Assembly (NCBI GenBank): GCA_009773735.1
Contig: WSYG01000007.1
Coordinates: forward strand, 1-55,505
Length of the DNA: 55,505 nucleotides
Direction of reading: 5' to 3'
Origin: Erysipelotrichaceae bacterium
GTDB taxonomy: Bacteria; Bacillota_I; Bacilli_A; Erysipelotrichales; Erysipelotrichaceae
Under the pieces are notes generated by a model, which was not told the origin of the DNA, ran no database searches, and saw nothing but the letters and a program-made list of their open reading frames with translations. The position numbers were made by a program, and so were the translations under genes. Positions 1,872 to 53,082 of the stretch are shown piece by piece. Every line of letters starts with the position of its first letter. Positions within the stretch are counted from its first letter, which is position 1.

Positions 1872-3065
1872 TTAATCGTTAGGATTGGCTTCTACGAAGA
1901 AGTTAGGATTAAAAAGGTTTTCTTTAAGTGACGCATCATAAATCACTTCACCTTTTAGGTAGGTAAGCTTAACCTTATAGTCATCACTAATGATGATGAA
2001 ATCCGCATCTTTTTCTCTGCTTAAAGATCCTTTATGATCAGCGATCCCATATTTACGACTTGGATTTAAACTGGCCATTTGACAGACTGTGGTGATGGGC
2101 ACCTTCAAAACTTCAACCAGATTTCCTATCCCATAGATCACAGGCATCGTAGAGCCCATTAAACGACCTGTATCGCTTAAACAGAAACCATCTGGTGTAA
2201 TAGTTACATTCATGTCTTTGAAGAGTCTGTAACGTCCTAATGGAGCACCAGATAGGGCTGAACAATCAGAGATCATCATAAAACGTTGAGGTGCTTTCAT
2301 TTGGAAATACAAACGGATCATTTCTAAACTAATGTGTTTACCATCACATATGACTTCACATTCAACATTAGGATGAGATAAAGCAGCACCTAAACCACCG
2401 ATATCTCGATGATGTAGACCTGTCATAACATTCCCGGTATGCGTTGAAACACTGATTCCAGAATCAAAAGCTTGAGTGGCTTCTTTGAAGTTATGATCAC
2501 TATGGGCATACGCAATCGTAATTCCTTGGGACAAAAAATAGTCTCGGATTTGATCGATCCCTGGGATTTCGGGGGCTAATGCGACTAGTCGCAATTGACC
2601 TTTCGCAAGTTTAACCATTTTTTTCGCATGATCTAAACTCACTTCAGGATAGCCTGTCTTAATCCCTTTTTCTCCGACACGATTAAGCCATGGTCCTTCA
2701 GAGTGAATGCCGCGGATCTGTTGACCAGCATGCGTTTTTGATAAATCAGCGATATCACTAAAAAGACTGATGTCGGCAGTTGGTAAGATCGAAGTAACAC
2801 CTTGACTGGCTAAACCTTTTAAATAACCCAATATATTAAAATTGTTTTTACTGGGATCTTTACTGGCCATCAAACTATAGCCTAAAGTACCATGATTGTG
2901 TGTGTCAAAAATACCAGGTATGATACGATCCATTCCACAATCAACAACCTTACTATCGGGGTTATCACGAACAAAATCTTTGATGATGCCATCTTCTACG
3001 ATCATATAGCCACTAAACACAACGTTTTCTAAAACGATCTGAGATGATTTATAGGCAATCTTCAT
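1872..3065 (-). CDS. nagA: N-acetylglucosamine-6-phosphate deacetylase
   Basis: The 397-residue protein is the usual length for NagA, which removes acetate from GlcNAc-6-phosphate in amino-sugar catabolism and wall recycling. Amidohydrolase features run in order: the first metal motif DTHNHG near 55, HSEGPW near 120, the histidine-rich segment AHSDHN, the STHTGNVMTGLHHRD loop, DGKHIS, and the catalytic-aspartate region ISDCSALSG. In many homologues this last segment reads TDA, so SDC is a conservative variant. A strong ribosome binding site (GGGAGGG) precedes the ATG. No nagB lies in the window, so the deaminase step must be encoded elsewhere. Confidence 0.93.
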   Translation of the reverse strand: MKIAYKSSQIVLENVVFSGYMIVEDGIIKDFVRDNPDSKVVDCGMDRIIPGIFDTHNHGTLGYSLMASKDPSKNNFNILGYLKGLASQGVTSILPTADISLFSDIADLSKTHAGQQIRGIHSEGPWLNRVGEKGIKTGYPEVSLDHAKKMVKLAKGQLRLVALAPEIPGIDQIRDYFLSQGITIAYAHSDHNFKEATQAFDSGISVSTHTGNVMTGLHHRDIGGLGAALSHPNVECEVICDGKHISLEMIRLYFQMKAPQRFMMISDCSALSGAPLGRYRLFKDMNVTITPDGFCLSDTGRLMGSTMPVIYGIGNLVEVLKVPITTVCQMASLNPSRKYGIADHKGSLSREKDADFIIISDDYKVKLTYLKGEVIYDASLKENLFNPNFFVEANPND

Positions 3066-46515: not shown

Positions 46516-46544
46516 TTGACTGACATTAACATCAAGCATAAAAT
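46516..46544 (+). promoter_or_regulatory. Promoter of the sigma-RsgI locus
   Basis: TTGACT (46516-46521), 17 bases, then TAAAAT (46539-46544). The start codon follows nine bases later, so the leader is extremely short. It resembles a housekeeping (SigA-type) promoter rather than an ECF-type one. Confidence 0.6.
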
Positions 46545-46553
46545 AGGGACGAA

Positions 46554-46973
46554 ATGACACTTACCAAACAAGAGCTTTTCGAAAACATCTATCATGCAAC
46601 ATTTAACATCCTATCAAAATATGTATTTTTCAAAGTCGCTTCTCTTGAAGATGCCCAGGATATCGTACAAAATATATATGCCCAGTACTATATCTCGGTC
46701 ATTCAAAAGAATAAAGCCATTGAAAATCCTCAAGCTTATTTGATGACTATGGCTACCAACGAATTAACTCTCTATTATAAGAATAAAGCGAATCAAGCCA
46801 TACTGCTAAATGAGGATGAGTTCAACATCTTCGAAAACATACCAGATGATAGTGACTTGGCTCTAGAAATCATCGAAAAAAGTACCGTTGAAATGATTTA
46901 TAAACAGATTAAGAGTTTATCTAAGCTTGATCAAAAAATCAAACTTCTCTCTATCATAGTAGTGCACACATAG
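46554..46973 (+). CDS. Truncated sigma-70-family (ECF-like) factor, copy 1
   Basis: The 139-residue product carries only sigma region 2. LEDAQDIVQNIYAQYY (around 33-48) is the region 2 core that binds RNA polymerase and the -10 box, and NPQAYLMTMATNELTLYYK matches region 2.3-2.4. After LSKLDQKI the sequence loses the 32 bases present in copy 2 and ends in KLLSIIVVHT. The region 4 helix-turn-helix that reads the -35 box is absent. It is nearly identical to the next gene and ends eight bases before it. It may be a decaying duplicate or a region-2-only protein. AGGGAC is a weak ribosome binding site. Confidence 0.65.
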   Translation: MTLTKQELFENIYHATFNILSKYVFFKVASLEDAQDIVQNIYAQYYISVIQKNKAIENPQAYLMTMATNELTLYYKNKANQAILLNEDEFNIFENIPDDSDLALEIIEKSTVEMIYKQIKSLSKLDQKIKLLSIIVVHT

Positions 46974-46980
46974 GGGCGAA

Positions 46981-47418
46981 ATGACACTCACCAAACAAGA
47001 GCTTTTCGAAAACATTTATCATGCAACATTTAACATCCTATCAAAATATGTATTTTTCAAAGTCGCTTCTCTAGAAGATGCCCAAGACATTGTACAAAAC
47101 GTATATGCCCAGTACTATAACTTGGTTATTCAAAAGAATAAAGTAATCGAAAATCCCCAGGCCTATTTGATGAGCATGGCCACCAATGAGTTAACACTTT
47201 ATTATAAGAATAAAGCGAATCAAGCCATCCTTCTGACTGATGATGAATTCAACATCTTTGAAAACATCCCAGATGATAGTGACTTGGCTCTAGAAATCAT
47301 CGAAAAAAGTACCGTTGAAATGATTTATAAACAGATTAAGAGTTTATCTAAGCTTGATCAAAAAATCAGAAATGATCTTTTTTTGAAACTATTTCTCCTA
47401 AACTTCTCTCTATTATAG
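46981..47418 (+). CDS. Truncated sigma-70-family (ECF-like) factor, copy 2
   Basis: The 145-residue product has the same region 2 as copy 1, with a few conservative changes (for example NVYAQYYNLV). It continues through LSKLDQKIRNDLFLKLFL, the normal start of region 4, but stops after NFSLL, so the DNA-binding helix-turn-helix is missing. A run of seven T (47378-47384) lies just before the end; reading one base back there would open the frame directly into the downstream anti-sigma gene. AGGGG precedes the ATG. It is cotranscribed with the RsgI-like gene, the usual arrangement of a sigma factor with its membrane anti-sigma partner. Confidence 0.68.
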   Translation: MTLTKQELFENIYHATFNILSKYVFFKVASLEDAQDIVQNVYAQYYNLVIQKNKVIENPQAYLMSMATNELTLYYKNKANQAILLTDDEFNIFENIPDDSDLALEIIEKSTVEMIYKQIKSLSKLDQKIRNDLFLKLFLLNFSLL

Positions 47419-47441
47419 TAGTAGCCACAAAGGAGAATAAA

Positions 47442-48713
47442 ATGAACAAATTACGCAAAGCTGTTTCACTCAACATGATGAGTGAAGAGAAGACGCTTCA
47501 ACAACTTAGAAGAAACTTAGGTTTTAAGAAGCCAAAGAATACTGAAGGTTTATTTTGGATAAGAAACGGACTGATCAGTTTTACTTTGATCTGTTTGGTT
47601 CTATTTGGTTCTTTCTATGATGGGTTAAACAAGAAAGACCCGTTAGCAGGTTTAACAACAACTCTTGTTTCAATCAACATTAACCCAAGTTTCACACTTG
47701 AAGTGAATACAGACAACAAAGTACTTAAGATCATCGCTGAAAATGATGATGCTGAAGGCATAAAAACAGATGATCTAGAAGGATTGGATGCGGTTCTTGT
47801 GGTTGAGACCTTGATCTTAAGAGCACAAGAAGCAGGATATTTAACAGATTCTGATTATGTGGTTGTCGCTACAGCACCTGCTAAAGTAGGCGATGAAGAT
47901 GATGCAGATGATCTATATGAATTAATTCTTGAAAATCTAGAAAAAGAAGGTGTCAGTGATGATGTCAATGTTGCATTGATCAAAGCTACTTTACAACAAC
48001 TCATGGCTGCTAAAGATAAAGATATTCCATTGGGCTTGTTTGTTGTCAACGGTTTAGTCAACAACGACGGCGTCATAATGTCTGTCTCTGATTTCTTAAA
48101 GAGCACAGGTAACCTGGAACTCTTAGAGACCATCTCCAGTGTCGTTAAAAAGACAACACTAAATACAAGATCTTTATTAGAACGATTCTTAGATCGACTT
48201 GAAAGAGCTGGTGTTGATGTTGAATCACTTAGAACACGCGCTGCTACAGAAGGTGAAAACCTTGCGGTCTTGAAAGCTGAAGTATTGGCATTATGGGATT
48301 CTCTTGATGAAGACACACAAGACGAAACCAGTTTAACGGATGATGAAAAAGTTGCCATATCTGAAGTTATCGCTGAACTCTTGGCTCAACTAAAAGCCTT
48401 GGGAATCGATGTATCAAGTTATGAAGCTTATTTGGCAACTGATGGTGCTGATTTACAAAGCATTGAAGAAGAATTGGATGAACTTCTAGATGGTTTAGAA
48501 GATGATGATGATAATGACATTGACGACAACGATGATGATGACATTGACGACGACGATGATAATGACATTGACGACGACGATGATGACATTGACGACAACG
48601 ATGATGACATTGACGACAACGATGATGACATTGACGACAACGATGATGACATTGACGTTGATGAAGAAGACGATATTGACGTTGATGAAGAAGACGAGGA
48701 AGATGTAGAATAA
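47442..48713 (+). CDS. RsgI-like membrane anti-sigma factor with Asp-rich C-terminal tail
   Basis: The 423-residue protein has a short cytosolic N-terminus (1-42), one membrane helix (about 43-61), and an extracytoplasmic part. Residues 70-200 match the RsgI middle domain: VSININPSFTLEVN, then VLKIIAENDDAEGI, LVVETLILRAQEAGYL, and a late PLGLFVVNGL. The Asn-Pro in INPS is where RsgI proteins are known to self-cleave. A helical region (210-345) follows. The last 75 or so residues are almost only Asp, Asn, Ile and Glu, in a seven-residue repeat. RsgI partners hold sigma factors at the membrane until an external signal triggers proteolysis. An AAGGAG ribosome binding site is present. Calcium or cation sensing by the tail is inference. 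Confidence 0.8.
   Translation: MNKLRKAVSLNMMSEEKTLQQLRRNLGFKKPKNTEGLFWIRNGLISFTLICLVLFGSFYDGLNKKDPLAGLTTTLVSININPSFTLEVNTDNKVLKIIAENDDAEGIKTDDLEGLDAVLVVETLILRAQEAGYLTDSDYVVVATAPAKVGDEDDADDLYELILENLEKEGVSDDVNVALIKATLQQLMAAKDKDIPLGLFVVNGLVNNDGVIMSVSDFLKSTGNLELLETISSVVKKTTLNTRSLLERFLDRLERAGVDVESLRTRAATEGENLAVLKAEVLALWDSLDEDTQDETSLTDDEKVAISEVIAELLAQLKALGIDVSSYEAYLATDGADLQSIEEELDELLDGLEDDDDNDIDDNDDDDIDDDDDNDIDDDDDDIDDNDDDIDDNDDDIDDNDDDIDVDEEDDIDVDEEDEEDVE
48501..48711 (+). repeat. Tandem 21-bp repeats encoding DDIDDND units
   Basis: Units close to GACATTGACGACAACGATGAT recur with a 21-base period, with shorter and degenerate units at the edges. They encode the acidic tail of the RsgI-like protein. 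All changes keep the reading frame, so selection for the acidic protein is likely. Confidence 0.85.
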
Positions 48714-48817: not shown

Positions 48818-48826
48818 TGCTATAAT
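48818..48826 (+). promoter_or_regulatory. Extended -10 promoter of the B12 operon
   Basis: TGCTATAAT is an extended -10 box with a consensus TATAAT at 48821-48826, just before the riboswitch. No good -35 box is seen. Confidence 0.65.
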
Positions 48827-48835
48827 GAATTTGCG

Positions 48836-48985
48836 AAATATGGTGCTTTACCAAAGCTTAAAAGGGAATTCGATAAAACGAAGCTGTCCCAGCAACTGTA
48901 GGTCCGGACAAGAGGAGACATACCACTGTGAAAACGGGAAGGTTCCTCAAGGAAGAAAGACCAGCCAGTAGACCTGCCCTATATC
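48836..48985 (+). ncRNA. Cobalamin (adenosylcobalamin-type) riboswitch
   Basis: The leader has the conserved riboswitch elements in order: GGTGCTTTACC at the start of the P2/P3 region, AAAAGGGAATTCG, GCTGTCCCAGCAACTGTA, and the B12 box GCCAGTAGACCTGCC near 48964-48978. It controls the three genes of the B12 operon. A terminator pair downstream is the expression platform. Confidence 0.93.
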
Positions 48986-49015
48986 CGCAACGCTTTTATC
49001 TTCTGGGAAAAAGAT

Positions 49016-49078: not shown

Positions 49079-49510
49079 ATGAAGAAAAATGCAGTAAGAA
49101 TTGGTTTAGCGTTCTTAGTTTTGGTACTTGGGTTAGGTGCTTATAAAGTTTATAGCGACTCTTTACGTGATCAAGGCTCAAAATCGATTCAGATCATCAT
49201 TCAAGATGAATCTGAAAAGGTTTTGTTTGATAAGGTCGTAAGAACGGATGCTGAAACCTTAGGTGATCTGCTTGATGAGATGATCAAAGAAAAGAAGTTT
49301 ACGATCGCCTTTGAAGGTACTAAAACCGATGTTTATGGACGCTATATCACTCAGATCAATGATGTGAAGGCAGGTGCTGCGGGTCCTTGGTGGGTCTATG
49401 CATCAACCAACAACACCGAATGTGTGGCTGCAGGTTATTGTGGTGGAATCGATGTCAATCCGATTCATGACAAAGATGTTTTTACGTTTTCATTAAGCAT
49501 GGGTTATTGA
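49079..49510 (+). CDS. DUF4430 exported protein, probable corrinoid-binding partner
   Basis: The 143-residue protein has an N-terminal membrane anchor (7-26) and a DUF4430 domain, a small beta-grasp fold related to the C-terminal domain of transcobalamin and intrinsic factor. The GPWWVYASTNNT and DKDVFTFSLSM segments are characteristic. It lacks a lipobox. It is the first gene under the cobalamin riboswitch and overlaps the ECF S-component gene (TGATG), so a role in catching cobalamin at the cell surface is likely. Direct evidence for this protein is lacking. Confidence 0.8.
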   Translation: MKKNAVRIGLAFLVLVLGLGAYKVYSDSLRDQGSKSIQIIIQDESEKVLFDKVVRTDAETLGDLLDEMIKEKKFTIAFEGTKTDVYGRYITQINDVKAGAAGPWWVYASTNNTECVAAGYCGGIDVNPIHDKDVFTFSLSMGY

Positions 49511-50049
49511 TGAGACCCTTACTAAAATACCTTATCTTAGCCTTATTGGCTGGCATGCTTTTTTTAGCCCAATTGTCATTGGCAGTTTTGCCAAATGTAG
49601 AATTGGTAAGCTTATTGCTTATGAGCATTGCATGTTCCTTTAAGCTAAAAGACGGTGTTTTAGTGGTCATCTTATTTACTCTTCTGGAAGGTCTGTATTG
49701 GGGCTTTGCAGATTGGGTCATAGGGTACTTGTGGATTTGGAGTTTACTGGTTATACTGGTTCAAGTCACTTTACCTTTAACGCGATTGAAGGCCAACCGA
49801 ATGGCCATCCTGGGAGGTCTATTTGGCCTGGCCTTCGGTTTCTTCTTTGCGTTACAGCATGCCTTATTGTATGGATTATCAATGGGGATATCCTATTGGA
49901 TCATGGGCATCGGTTTTGATTTACTTCATGGATTTGCGAATTATACCTTGATCTTATTGTTGTTTGAACCGATCAATAAGATTCTGACTCACTTGATCAG
50001 AAAGGCGGAAAGCAGATATGGGAATCGTCACTACGAAAACGGGAGATAA
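49510..50049 (+). CDS. ECF transporter S component, probable cobalamin transporter (CbrT-like)
   Basis: The roughly 179-residue protein has about five to six membrane helices, a size typical of ECF S components. The start overlaps the DUF4430 stop by one base; a TTG three bases upstream is less likely. The 3' end overlaps the adenosyltransferase gene by 32 bases. Riboswitch control and cotranscription with the adenosyltransferase indicate cobalamin as the substrate, analogous to CbrT of Lactobacillus. No BtuCD-type importer is in the window. The shared EcfAA'T module must come from elsewhere. Confidence 0.8.
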   Translation: MRPLLKYLILALLAGMLFLAQLSLAVLPNVELVSLLLMSIACSFKLKDGVLVVILFTLLEGLYWGFADWVIGYLWIWSLLVILVQVTLPLTRLKANRMAILGGLFGLAFGFFFALQHALLYGLSMGISYWIMGIGFDLLHGFANYTLILLLFEPINKILTHLIRKAESRYGNRHYENGR

Positions 50050-50482
50050 AGGCAAAACTTATCTCAAAGACAAAGTGGTCTCAAAAGGATCCTTAACGAT
50101 TGAAAGCATAGGCACCATCGATGAATTGATTGCGAATATGATTTTGACTCAATCCTTGACTCAACTGGATCGAAACTTATTTGAAGGTCCGGTCAATAAA
50201 CTGATAGAGATCGGATCTTATTTAGCAGGTTTTAAGGGTGTCCCAGATTTCAAAGACATTACCGATCAATTAGAACAAACCATCCTCTCTAGACGAGAAA
50301 ATTATAATGGATTCATATATCCTTATGGTGATCCTAAAAACGCCCAGATCAATGTTTTAAGAACTGTGGTACGAAGAACTGAACGTACTTTGATTCGCCA
50401 CCACGAAGAAAATCCTTTGCCTGAATCTTTGCTTATATTTATGAATAGGCTTTCAGACTATGTCTTTGTGTTAATTGGATAA
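50018..50482 (+). CDS. PduO-type ATP:cob(I)alamin adenosyltransferase
   Basis: The 154-residue enzyme transfers adenosyl from ATP to cob(I)alamin, making the coenzyme form used by class II ribonucleotide reductase. The N-terminal ATP motif TKTGDKGKTYL, the central VVRRTERTL (arginines that bind ATP) and the late NRLSDYVFVL are the PduO hallmarks. It is slightly shorter than typical members (about 180), missing some C-terminal tail. It lies directly upstream of the reductase gene. Confidence 0.93.
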   Translation: MGIVTTKTGDKGKTYLKDKVVSKGSLTIESIGTIDELIANMILTQSLTQLDRNLFEGPVNKLIEIGSYLAGFKGVPDFKDITDQLEQTILSRRENYNGFIYPYGDPKNAQINVLRTVVRRTERTLIRHHEENPLPESLLIFMNRLSDYVFVLIG

Positions 50483-50568
50483 AATGTAAGCATTATGAAA
50501 AAGAACATTACTCATAGTATGATAAAATGGTAGCACGTAGTTTTCTAAAAGAAGGGATGGGAAATCTT

Positions 50569-53082
50569 ATGTATAACCAAGAAACAATTCATAAACTTAA
50601 TCACGACATCACCACGCATTTTCCTCACATTTTTCCGATTGAACCACATTTTAAACTGATTCATTCGGGGGTTAGCCGTTTGGTGATGCTCGATAGATAT
50701 GCTCAAAAAGACAGAAGTCTTACAACTTTAGGGATCCATGATCTCGTTGTCACTATTGTTAAAGAAGATCCTAAATTTCCTGCTCGTGGGATTGGTTTTG
50801 TGACCCACATCGATCATGAAAAAGAAATCGTTACTCTTAAATTAGATGAAGAATTCAGATCTATCTTAGAAGATGAAAAAGAAGCTGAAACAGGATTGAT
50901 TCAACGTCCTTTTAAACAAATTGAGAAACCTTTAGAAATCTTTTATGAACAAATCGGTAGAAGAGTCGGGAAATCTTTAGCGTCGACTGAAAGTACTCCT
51001 GAACTTAAAGAAAAATTCAGTAATTTATTCGCCGATGAACTTGCGAAAATGAACATTATCCCTGCTGGCAGAGTTTTATATGGGGCAGGCAGTGGTACAC
51101 AGGTTACATACTTCAATTGTTTCGTTATGCCCTTTATTCATGATAGTCGTGGTGGTATATCCAATCACCGTGCAGAAGTCATGGAGATCATGTCTAGAGG
51201 TGGAGGTGTTGGAACCAATGGTTCAACCTTAAGACCTAAGAGTGCCCCTGCAAAAGGCGTTGGTGGTAAATCTTCGGGGGCTGTCAGCTGGCTCAACGAT
51301 ATTGCGAATCTAACGCACTTGGTTGAACAAGGTGGAAGTCGCAGAGGTGCCCAGATGATCATGCTGGCAGATTGGCATCCTGACATCATTGAATTCATCG
51401 TTGCTAAGATGCAAAATGCCAAGGTATTGAAATGGTTGACTGAAAACTCAAAAGACCCTCAAATCGTAGAAGAAGCCAAACGTAAACTGAAATTTGTTCC
51501 TTTAACAAGAGTCGAAAGAGAATTATATGAAGCTGTCGCTGAAAGTAAAACGGCGAATTCTCAAGTTGTTGAATATGCCAGAGAATTGTTACTAGATGGT
51601 GGGAAGTTAGAAGTTCATGCCCCTGAATTCTTATCTGGTGCTAATATTTCAGTTACCTTAACACGTGAATTTATGAATGCTGTTCAATATGACCGAGACT
51701 TCGAACTTCGTTTCCCAGATCTTCAGAATTATACCAAAGAACAAAAAGATGACTATGATTCTAAATGGCAAGATGTTGGTGATGTTCGTGAATGGGAAGC
51801 CATGGGTTATCCCATCAAAGTCTATCGCAAAATCAAAGCCAGAGATTTATGGGACCTTATCAGTTTCTGTGCAACTTACTCAGCTGAACCAGGTATTTTC
51901 TTTATCGATAACGCCAACGATATGACCAATGCTAAAGCTTACGGACAAAAAGTTGTCGCAACCAATCCTTGTGGTGAACAACCTTTAGCCGCTTATAGTG
52001 TATGTAATCTCGCAGCCATCAATTTAGCCAATTTCGTTGATCGTAAAACAGGCAGAGTGTTATATGAAGAACTTGCGAATACCGTTAAAATCTGTGTGCG
52101 TATGCAAGATGATGTCATTGATGATACTCCTTACTTCCTAGAACCCAACCAAAAACAAGCCACAGGTGAACGCCGTGTCGGTTTAGGAGTCATGGGTCTA
52201 CATGATCTGTTGATTTGGGCTGGACAACGTTACGGCTCAAAAGAATCTTTAGTGACGATCGATGAAGTCTTTAGGACCATCGCTGAAGCTGCTTATACAG
52301 AATCCATTGATTTAGCTGCTGAAAAGGGATCTTTCCCATTCTTAACCAGCCGTGAAGCTTTCATCAACACCGGATATATGAAACAAATGAATGATGATAT
52401 CAGAAACGGTGTCCTTAAACATGGAATTCGTAATTCACATCTGTTGACCATAGCCCCTACAGGTTCTACCGGAACCATGGTTGGTGTTTCTACAGGTCTA
52501 GAACCTTATTTCTCTTTCTCCTATTTCAGAAGCGGAAGACTAGGAAAATTCATTGAAGTCAATGCCCAGATCGTAGAAGACTGGCTAACGATTCATCCAG
52601 AATATACCAGAGCTACTTTACCCGATTTCTTTGTTTCGGCAATGGAATTATCACCTGAAGAACATGCGGATACACAGTGTGCCATTCAACGTTGGATCGA
52701 TTCCTCCATATCTAAAACAGTGAATGCCCCAAAAGGATTCTCAGTTAGAGAAGTTCAAAAAATCTACGAACGTTTATACAACGGAAAAGCCAAAGGCGGT
52801 ACCGTTTATGTAGATGGTAGCCGTGATTCTCAAGTGCTTTCACTTAGTAATGATGAAGATAAGAACTGGGCTCAAATGGACTTGGTCCATGATTTCGGAG
52901 TCAAGGTCAAAGAACAACAAACCGATGATAAGAAAACAGATCTTCGTGCAGACCGAATGGACAGAAACATTGGTGTCGAAGTCGGTGACATCTGTCCGAT
53001 CTGCTTAGAAGGTGTCGTTGAAGAAATTGGTGGATGTAATACATGCACCAACTGTAATGCTCAACTTAAATGTGGTCTCTAA
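50569..53082 (+). CDS. nrdJ: Adenosylcobalamin-dependent (class II) ribonucleotide reductase
   Basis: The roughly 837-residue enzyme makes deoxyribonucleotides with adenosylcobalamin instead of a metal-radical subunit, in aerobic or anaerobic cells. SRGGGVGTNGSTLRPKSAPA is the substrate-site signature, NPCGEQPLAAYSVCNLAAIN holds the catalytic cysteine-glutamate motif, and ICPICLEGVVEE with CNTCTNC near the end forms a zinc-ribbon with the C-terminal redox cysteines. The ATG at 50569 is favoured over 50527 because a TATGAT at 50518-50523 would put the transcription start downstream of 50527. The ribosome binding site is weak. The enzyme consumes the coenzyme made by the adjacent adenosyltransferase. 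Confidence 0.92.
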   Translation: MYNQETIHKLNHDITTHFPHIFPIEPHFKLIHSGVSRLVMLDRYAQKDRSLTTLGIHDLVVTIVKEDPKFPARGIGFVTHIDHEKEIVTLKLDEEFRSILEDEKEAETGLIQRPFKQIEKPLEIFYEQIGRRVGKSLASTESTPELKEKFSNLFADELAKMNIIPAGRVLYGAGSGTQVTYFNCFVMPFIHDSRGGISNHRAEVMEIMSRGGGVGTNGSTLRPKSAPAKGVGGKSSGAVSWLNDIANLTHLVEQGGSRRGAQMIMLADWHPDIIEFIVAKMQNAKVLKWLTENSKDPQIVEEAKRKLKFVPLTRVERELYEAVAESKTANSQVVEYARELLLDGGKLEVHAPEFLSGANISVTLTREFMNAVQYDRDFELRFPDLQNYTKEQKDDYDSKWQDVGDVREWEAMGYPIKVYRKIKARDLWDLISFCATYSAEPGIFFIDNANDMTNAKAYGQKVVATNPCGEQPLAAYSVCNLAAINLANFVDRKTGRVLYEELANTVKICVRMQDDVIDDTPYFLEPNQKQATGERRVGLGVMGLHDLLIWAGQRYGSKESLVTIDEVFRTIAEAAYTESIDLAAEKGSFPFLTSREAFINTGYMKQMNDDIRNGVLKHGIRNSHLLTIAPTGSTGTMVGVSTGLEPYFSFSYFRSGRLGKFIEVNAQIVEDWLTIHPEYTRATLPDFFVSAMELSPEEHADTQCAIQRWIDSSISKTVNAPKGFSVREVQKIYERLYNGKAKGGTVYVDGSRDSQVLSLSNDEDKNWAQMDLVHDFGVKVKEQQTDDKKTDLRADRMDRNIGVEVGDICPICLEGVVEEIGGCNTCTNCNAQLKCGL

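Follow-up and report, generated by a model that had tools for sequence, protein, structure and literature searches.

Probable recent loss of region 4 from both copies of a tandemly duplicated ECF sigma gene beside an RsgI-like anti-sigma gene in an Erysipelotrichaceae bacterium

Two short sigma factor-like ORFs in tandem, followed by an RsgI-like anti-sigma gene, raise the question of whether a pair of region 2 domains can form a regulatory system of its own or whether region 4 has simply been lost. The locus lies on contig WSYG01000007.1 of an Erysipelotrichaceae bacterium (assembly GCA_009773735.1); the window is the whole stretch of 55,505 nt that was analysed. Its ORF list contains the tandem ORFs of 139 aa and 145 aa (46554-46973 and 46981-47418) and a third ORF of 423 aa (47442-48713). 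Taken together, the comparisons below make a recent, lineage-specific deletion look more plausible than a novel type of switch. The parts of the locus, all on the forward strand, are the following.

46516..46544, + strand: sigma-A-like promoter TTGACT-N17-TAAAAT before the operon (consensus scan, 10/12 positions), weak on its own since the region has no more such promoters than expected from shuffled sequence
46554..46973, + strand: sigma copy 1 (c1), 139 aa, with ECF region 2, linker, first helix of region 4 and a 10-aa non-homologous tail; 54% identity to the full-length ortholog over 129 aa
46842..46941, + strand: 100-nt tract of c1 identical to 47269-47368 in c2, an apparent gene conversion tract that extends to the junction
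46932..46939, + strand: CAAAAAAT at the truncation point of c1 (compare 1867-1874, CAAAAGAT, and 1998-2005, CAAAAAAT, in congener locus L007)
46949..46954, + strand: CTCTAT, the -10 element remaining in the c1-c2 gap, its -35 gone with a further 32 nt (comparison of the c1 and c2 tails)
46981..47418, + strand: sigma copy 2 (c2), 145 aa, with the same ECF region 2, linker and first region 4 helix; its tail RNDLFLKLFLLNFSLL is translated former intergenic DNA
47359..47366, + strand: CAAAAAAT, junction of the ~131-nt deletion that took the rest of region 4 (comparison with the G001 and G002 orthologs)
47375..47394, + strand: ATCTTTTTTTGAAACTATTT, 20/20 identical to the sequence 3' of the sigma stop codon in congener G001; holds the ECF -35 (TGAAAC and T-tract)
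47384..47413, + strand: ECF-type promoter TGAAAC-N18-CTCTAT 5' of rsgI, overlapping the 3' end of c2
47442..48713, + strand: RsgI-like anti-sigma factor, 423 aa, with a short cytosolic N-terminus, a TM helix, PF23750 near the Asn-Pro site (SININPS) and Asp-rich C-terminal repeats

The sigma-A-like promoter stands directly 5' of the c1 RBS. c1 and c2 form a direct repeat (300 nt, 89% identity, spacing 427 nt), and the RsgI-like gene starts 23 bp downstream of c2. Pfam matches to region 2 (PF04542) are weak for the two ORFs (E = 0.0013 and 0.011), as is that of region 2 in the full-length G001 ortholog (0.0048). With TIGR02937, c1 and c2 reach 20-22 bits, below the cut-off of 42.9, and the full-length ortholog 60.4. 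An AlphaFold model of c2 has a mean pLDDT of 71.8, with about 80-90 over residues 1-80, and its best Foldseek matches are ECF sigma factors (E-values weak, probabilities up to 1.0). The two copies are assigned to the sigma2 domain because of these structural matches and of their 54% identity over 129 aa to the full-length ortholog. Both retain DAQDIVQ, which includes the core-binding motif DAQD, and the -10-reading segment AYLxxMA. The ORF list, Pfam and ortholog identity thus agree with the preliminary description in placing two region-2-only sigma ORFs beside an RsgI-like gene. It had them end at or before the start of region 4. Region 4 proper is indeed absent, with no match of c1 or c2 to PF08281 or PF04545 in Pfam (2.8e-9 in the ortholog), but both copies end slightly later, after ...SLSKLDQKI and past the first helix of region 4.

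The syntenic locus of the congener G001 contains a single sigma gene of 171 aa with region 4 (PF08281, 2.8e-9), followed by the orthologous RsgI gene. The block runs from the ssb/rpsF side, here with an inserted LicD-like gene, through sigma, RsgI and a DUF4430-like gene to the cobalamin genes, and the protein downstream of RsgI is 77% identical to its counterpart in the window. The arrangement in G002 is the same up to the limit of its contig. Because both syntenic loci carry a full-length sigma gene together with RsgI, the comparison indicates that the gene at this position once had region 4, which the lineage of the window has lost. One full-length sigma gene in relatives is also the outcome that the preliminary description had named as speaking against a distinct region-2-only system, and that proposal is not upheld. 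c1 and c2 thus lack a domain that their syntenic orthologs have, as is expected of a pseudogene or decaying gene.

Relative to G001 (L007), 131 nt between CAAAAGAT (1867) and CAAAAAAT (1998) are absent from the window, which keeps a single CAAAAAAT at each junction (47359-47366 in c2, 46932-46939 in c1). From this arrangement we infer slippage as the mechanism of the ~131-nt deletion. The 3' tail of c2 matches the sigma-RsgI gap of G001 at 20/20 nt (ATCTTTTTTTGAAACTATTT), with a local alignment score of 40 that was reached in 0/1000 shuffles. A frameshifted region 4 was considered as the source of the tail and rejected, as the tail shows no likeness to region 4 codons (796/1000 shuffles as high), in contrast to its exact 20-nt match to the gap. 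On this alignment, the c2 tail is former intergenic promoter DNA and not region 4. c1 lacks a further 32 nt of the c2-type tail.

The promoter overlapping the 3' end of c2, TGAAAC-N18-CTCTAT (47384-47413), is the only exact match of this pattern in the 1.94-Mb window genome. The form TTTGAAACTNTTT-N13-CTC occurs exactly once in each of the genomes G000, G001 and G002, in every case at this locus in the sigma-RsgI gap. G001 and G002 carry TGAAAC-N18-CTCG here, and members of genus g8 have the same form upstream of sigma. An AAC -35 is a textbook feature of ECF promoters (PMC8103513), and a T-tract after the AAC triad has been reported for ECF promoters of B. subtilis (PMC6056542). In C31-type paralogs and several congeners, the sigma-RsgI gap contains (C/A)GTC-N18-CTC(T/G), which is often found upstream of sigma as well. 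Conserved (C/A)GTC-N18-CTCTAT/CTCG elements occur in the gap at L003, L021, L022, L009, L010, L008 and L100, in most of them also upstream of sigma. This element is the predicted autoregulatory promoter of the ECF/RsgI-like family. An adjacent anti-sigma gene and a putative promoter of autoregulatory type, as expected for an ECF sigma factor, are thus both found at the window locus. The gap between c1 and c2 has retained the -10 (CTCTAT) and lost the -35. A wider TGAAAC-N18-CTCTAT regulon was rejected, since matches with one mismatch do not exceed a reversed-pattern control. The rsgI promoter is perfect although no product encoded here should read its -35. As it is intact even though synonymous divergence between the window and G001 is close to saturation (dS 2.5 or more), it was probably in use by a sigma factor bearing region 4 until recently.

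The first 288 nt of c1 and c2 contain 32 differences and the next 100 nt none, a distribution with P = 4.5e-5 under random placement. In the identical 100-nt tract, 8.1 synonymous differences are expected and 0 observed (P = 2e-5); the shared tail of 23 nt has a single difference. The first 96 codons give a dS of 0.68 and a dN of 0.03 (dN/dS about 0.05), with 25 synonymous and 7 nonsynonymous changes (Fisher 7e-15). Because dS amounts to 0.68 upstream while the last 100 nt are identical, the pattern points to an old duplication with a recently homogenised 3' end. The divergence thus indicates that the duplication is old and has been under purifying selection; it had been described as recent, which does not hold outside the homogenised tract. 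That both ORFs stay open through region 2 was seen correctly. The 25:7 excess thus shows selection on region 2 since the duplication, but does not imply that this selection acted on proteins already truncated. The tree places every amino-acid change that separates the copies on c1, which suggests that c2 is the more constrained copy.

The truncation, in turn, is probably recent, for three reasons. The -35 of the rsgI promoter is the same as in G001 despite the near-saturated synonymous sites, the homogenised tract extends to the junction, and the conservation of the linker with the first region 4 helix (69%) matches that between orthologs of the full-length paralogs (66-69%). Several points count against a recent loss of region 4 and of activity. 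Both ORFs are open, region 2 of c1 and c2 shows no decay on the tree and keeps its core-binding and -10-reading segments, and the window copies lie nearer to the common ancestor (branch lengths 0.26-0.31) than the full-length G001 ortholog (0.61-0.64). If the truncation had preceded the duplication, the low dN/dS would reflect selection on sigma2-only proteins; moreover, loss of region 4 from both copies takes two steps, and the -35 could be maintained by another sigma factor. An accelerated evolution of the window copies after truncation had been considered from their lower ortholog identity (54% vs 73-76%) and was withdrawn, as the long branch belongs to G001 and G002. These two species differ by a dS of 0.39 at this sigma gene.

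The family was surveyed in 273 genomes. Among the best matches listed, c1 and c2 are the only real truncations and the others span region 4; the figures refer to these best matches, and a truncated case among weaker ones is possible. The other short match inspected, in G217 (G217:C31), was dismissed as a second region-2-only case, its shortness being caused by a run of N. The window genome itself has two further full-length sigma genes paired with RsgI-like genes, on contigs C31 and C73. The truncation is known from one draft assembly of 82 contigs and one strain.

The partner protein is of RsgI type with an Asn-Pro motif, as had been proposed: PF23750 (RsgI_M) is matched at 1.9e-18 in Pfam, with ININPS at the Asn-Pro position. 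The solved RsgI9 domain 8t9n is also matched, though weakly (E = 0.0035), and INPS is aligned to the start of that match. RsgI_N (PF12791) gave no match, neither in the N-terminal 86 aa nor in the full RsgI-like proteins. Over 336 aa, the protein is 65% identical to its G001 ortholog. The putative autocleavage motif SININPS (47670-47690) has Asn two positions before the Asn of the Asn-Pro site, where all relatives aligned have Asp (SIDINPS, SVDINPS, ALDINPS, ALDVNPS). The Asp-rich C-terminal repeats (48500-48710) are periodic at 21 nt. The RsgI orthologs of G001 and G002 are about 105 aa longer, with extra repeat segments ahead of an acidic tail. In G004 (L010:2060-3045), an RsgI-like gene beside a full-length sigma gene appears split into two overlapping ORFs (2060-2297 and 2289-3045), probably by a frameshift.

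We hold it likely, though by no means certain, that this is an autoregulated ECF/RsgI-like locus in which an older tandem duplication of the sigma gene was followed by a recent loss of region 4, and with it of promoter recognition, in both copies. In the ancestral state, as it may be reconstructed from the congeners, the sigma factor would have been made from a housekeeping-type promoter, and the N-terminus of the RsgI-like protein would have tethered it to the membrane. Cleavage of the extracytoplasmic domain would have freed the sigma factor, and the free sigma factor would have fired TGAAAC-N18-CTC(T/G) in the sigma-rsgI gap, giving more anti-sigma and hence negative feedback. In the lineage of the window, one copy would have lost most of region 4 through a ~131-nt deletion between the CAAAAAAT repeats, and the other would have received the truncated 3' end by apparent gene conversion; another deletion, of 32 nt, would have taken the -35 box of the promoter that lay between them. 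As they now stand, c1 and c2 retain the domain for core binding and -10 reading. They should still be able to fold as sigma2 and may bind core polymerase, while the -35-dependent rsgI promoter should be unusable to them. The transcriptional output of the system is probably lost, the ORFs being intact mainly because the loss is young. Of the options considered in the preliminary description (decoys, -10-only sigma factors, decaying copies), the last fits best, except that the copies appear recently truncated rather than long decaying.

The most serious alternative, though an unlikely one, is that c1 and c2 form a functional sigma2-only pair under selection, acting either as titrators of the RsgI-like N-terminus or RNA polymerase (anti-anti-sigma) or as -10-only initiators. 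Both ORFs are open with a dN/dS of about 0.05 since the duplication, region 2 is not accelerated and keeps its core-binding and -10-reading motifs, the c1-c2 gap offers a -10 CTCTAT without a -35, and PhyR provides a precedent for a sigma mimic that titrates an anti-sigma factor, NepR (PMC8103513). However, the signal of selection may stem from the full-length period, as the truncated 3' end was homogenised recently. A -10-only sigma factor would not need a -35 before rsgI, yet exactly this -35 is perfectly kept, and a titrator would have to do without the sigma C-terminal domain, which is missing here and to which the classical RsgI N-terminus binds (PMC12203970), though the window protein, with its different N-terminus, may not follow that rule. 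Were the pair functional, a lone sigma2 domain could persist in a regulatory role where the cell has no region 4 partner for it, and a cellular regulatory system would have been made through deletion of region 4 from an autoregulated ECF sigma factor. We consider it very improbable that region 4 was lost long ago, before the duplication, and that the rsgI promoter was kept for a paralogous sigma factor (of the C31 or C73 pair), with the truncated ORFs as bystanders or modulators. The two copies do share the same junction, and the window -10 CTCTAT equals that of the C31 paralog promoter, so that cross-recognition of the -10 is conceivable; but the -35 of the paralogs is CGTC/AGTC or CGTT and not TGAAAC, linker and first helix of region 4 show no relaxation, and the homogenised tract spans the junction.

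Reads misjoined over the tandem repeat, or strains mixed in a metagenome bin, could also mimic such a locus. The genome is in 82 contigs, its nearest named relatives are metagenome bins, and the 100-nt identical tract lies exactly at the junctions. Against this stand the position of the junction in a short direct repeat that joins sequences adjacent in the congeners once region 4 is removed, a tail that keeps a precisely spaced promoter, and copies that differ at 32 nt and in their tails and are therefore no collapsed or echoed repeat; an assembly artefact is improbable. Hardly to be expected at all is a split sigma factor, with region 2 from c1/c2 and region 4 from a separate protein. The region-2-only architecture would suit it, and in SigO-RsoA of B. 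subtilis, sigma4 and sigma2 do reside in two separate proteins (PMC8103513). The congeners have both regions in one gene, though, and no orphan region 4 gene was found by region 4 family searches of the whole genome (99.27% complete) and inspection of candidate loci. The matches were primary-sigma-like, complete sigma factors, a mobile-element protein, SigH-like, a non-sigma DNA-binding protein and a YlxM-like protein after ftsY. With no region-4-only partner in the genome, this candidate was dropped.

A loose parallel is gp55 of phage T4, of sigma2 type and functional in the absence of sigma4; it belongs to a phage system and, unlike c1 and c2, has a separate beta-flap-binding partner (gp55/gp33). 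Among cellular systems, the ECF (group IV) sigma factors that pair with an anti-sigma factor in the membrane and are autoregulated through an AAC-type -35 come close: the congener ortholog has the two-domain sigma2/sigma4 structure and an adjacent membrane anti-sigma factor, and the promoter at the sigma-anti-sigma locus has the AAC -35 and T-tract. The window copies depart from them by the absence of sigma4, and the locus by a promoter between sigma and anti-sigma genes, the -10 CTCTAT/CTCG and the 18-nt spacer. With SigI-RsgI of Bacilli and Clostridia, which has autocleaving PF23750/SEAL anti-sigma factors, the locus shares a single TM helix and an extracytoplasmic PF23750 with Asn-Pro-Ser. 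In contrast, SigI has another C-terminal domain than the canonical region 4 of the ortholog and paralogs of the window sigma (PMC6056542), the cytosolic part here has no RsgI_N (PF12791) match, and the usual SIDINPS is SININPS. The locus is therefore not SigI/RsgI proper, given the canonical ECF region 4 of the ortholog (PF08281, 2.8e-9) and an anti-sigma factor that RsgI_N does not match. The C-terminal domain of the sigma factor is what the RsgI N-terminus binds in C. thermocellum (PMC12203970); the N-terminus of the window protein is different, shorter and has no Pfam RsgI_N match. RsoA of SigO-RsoA, a sigma2-only protein made as a separate gene product, is the nearest described cellular one (PMC8103513), unlike c1/c2 in that no sigma4 partner was found in the window genome and the relatives have the regions fused. 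PhyR-NepR-EcfG offers a possible analogy, as a sigma-like domain unable to start transcription can titrate an anti-sigma factor; c1 and c2, however, have no receiver domain, and there is no second full-length cognate sigma at the locus.

Read as a probably recent loss, the locus would exemplify an autoregulated ECF/anti-sigma circuit that loses promoter recognition with the anti-sigma gene and promoter left intact. The route of the loss would be a direct-repeat deletion of region 4, followed by probable gene conversion into the tandem copy. In addition, a clean predicted promoter is gained for the little-known ECF sigma factors paired with RsgI-like anti-sigma factors.

Outside the family, an unannotated phage record from human fecal samples (MT835480.1:55100-55384) has a sigma-region-2-like stretch 30% identical to c2. 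A phage origin of c1/c2 was set aside, one distant match at this identity being uninformative. Downstream of the sigma/RsgI locus, a cobalamin riboswitch (RF00174, 89 bits) is located at 48824-48996. The genes at 49079-53082 encode a DUF4430-like small exported protein, a membrane protein (no Pfam match), a cobalamin adenosyltransferase (PF01923) and the large chain of ribonucleotide reductase (PF02867). The sigma locus is thus adjoined by a block for B12 uptake and use.
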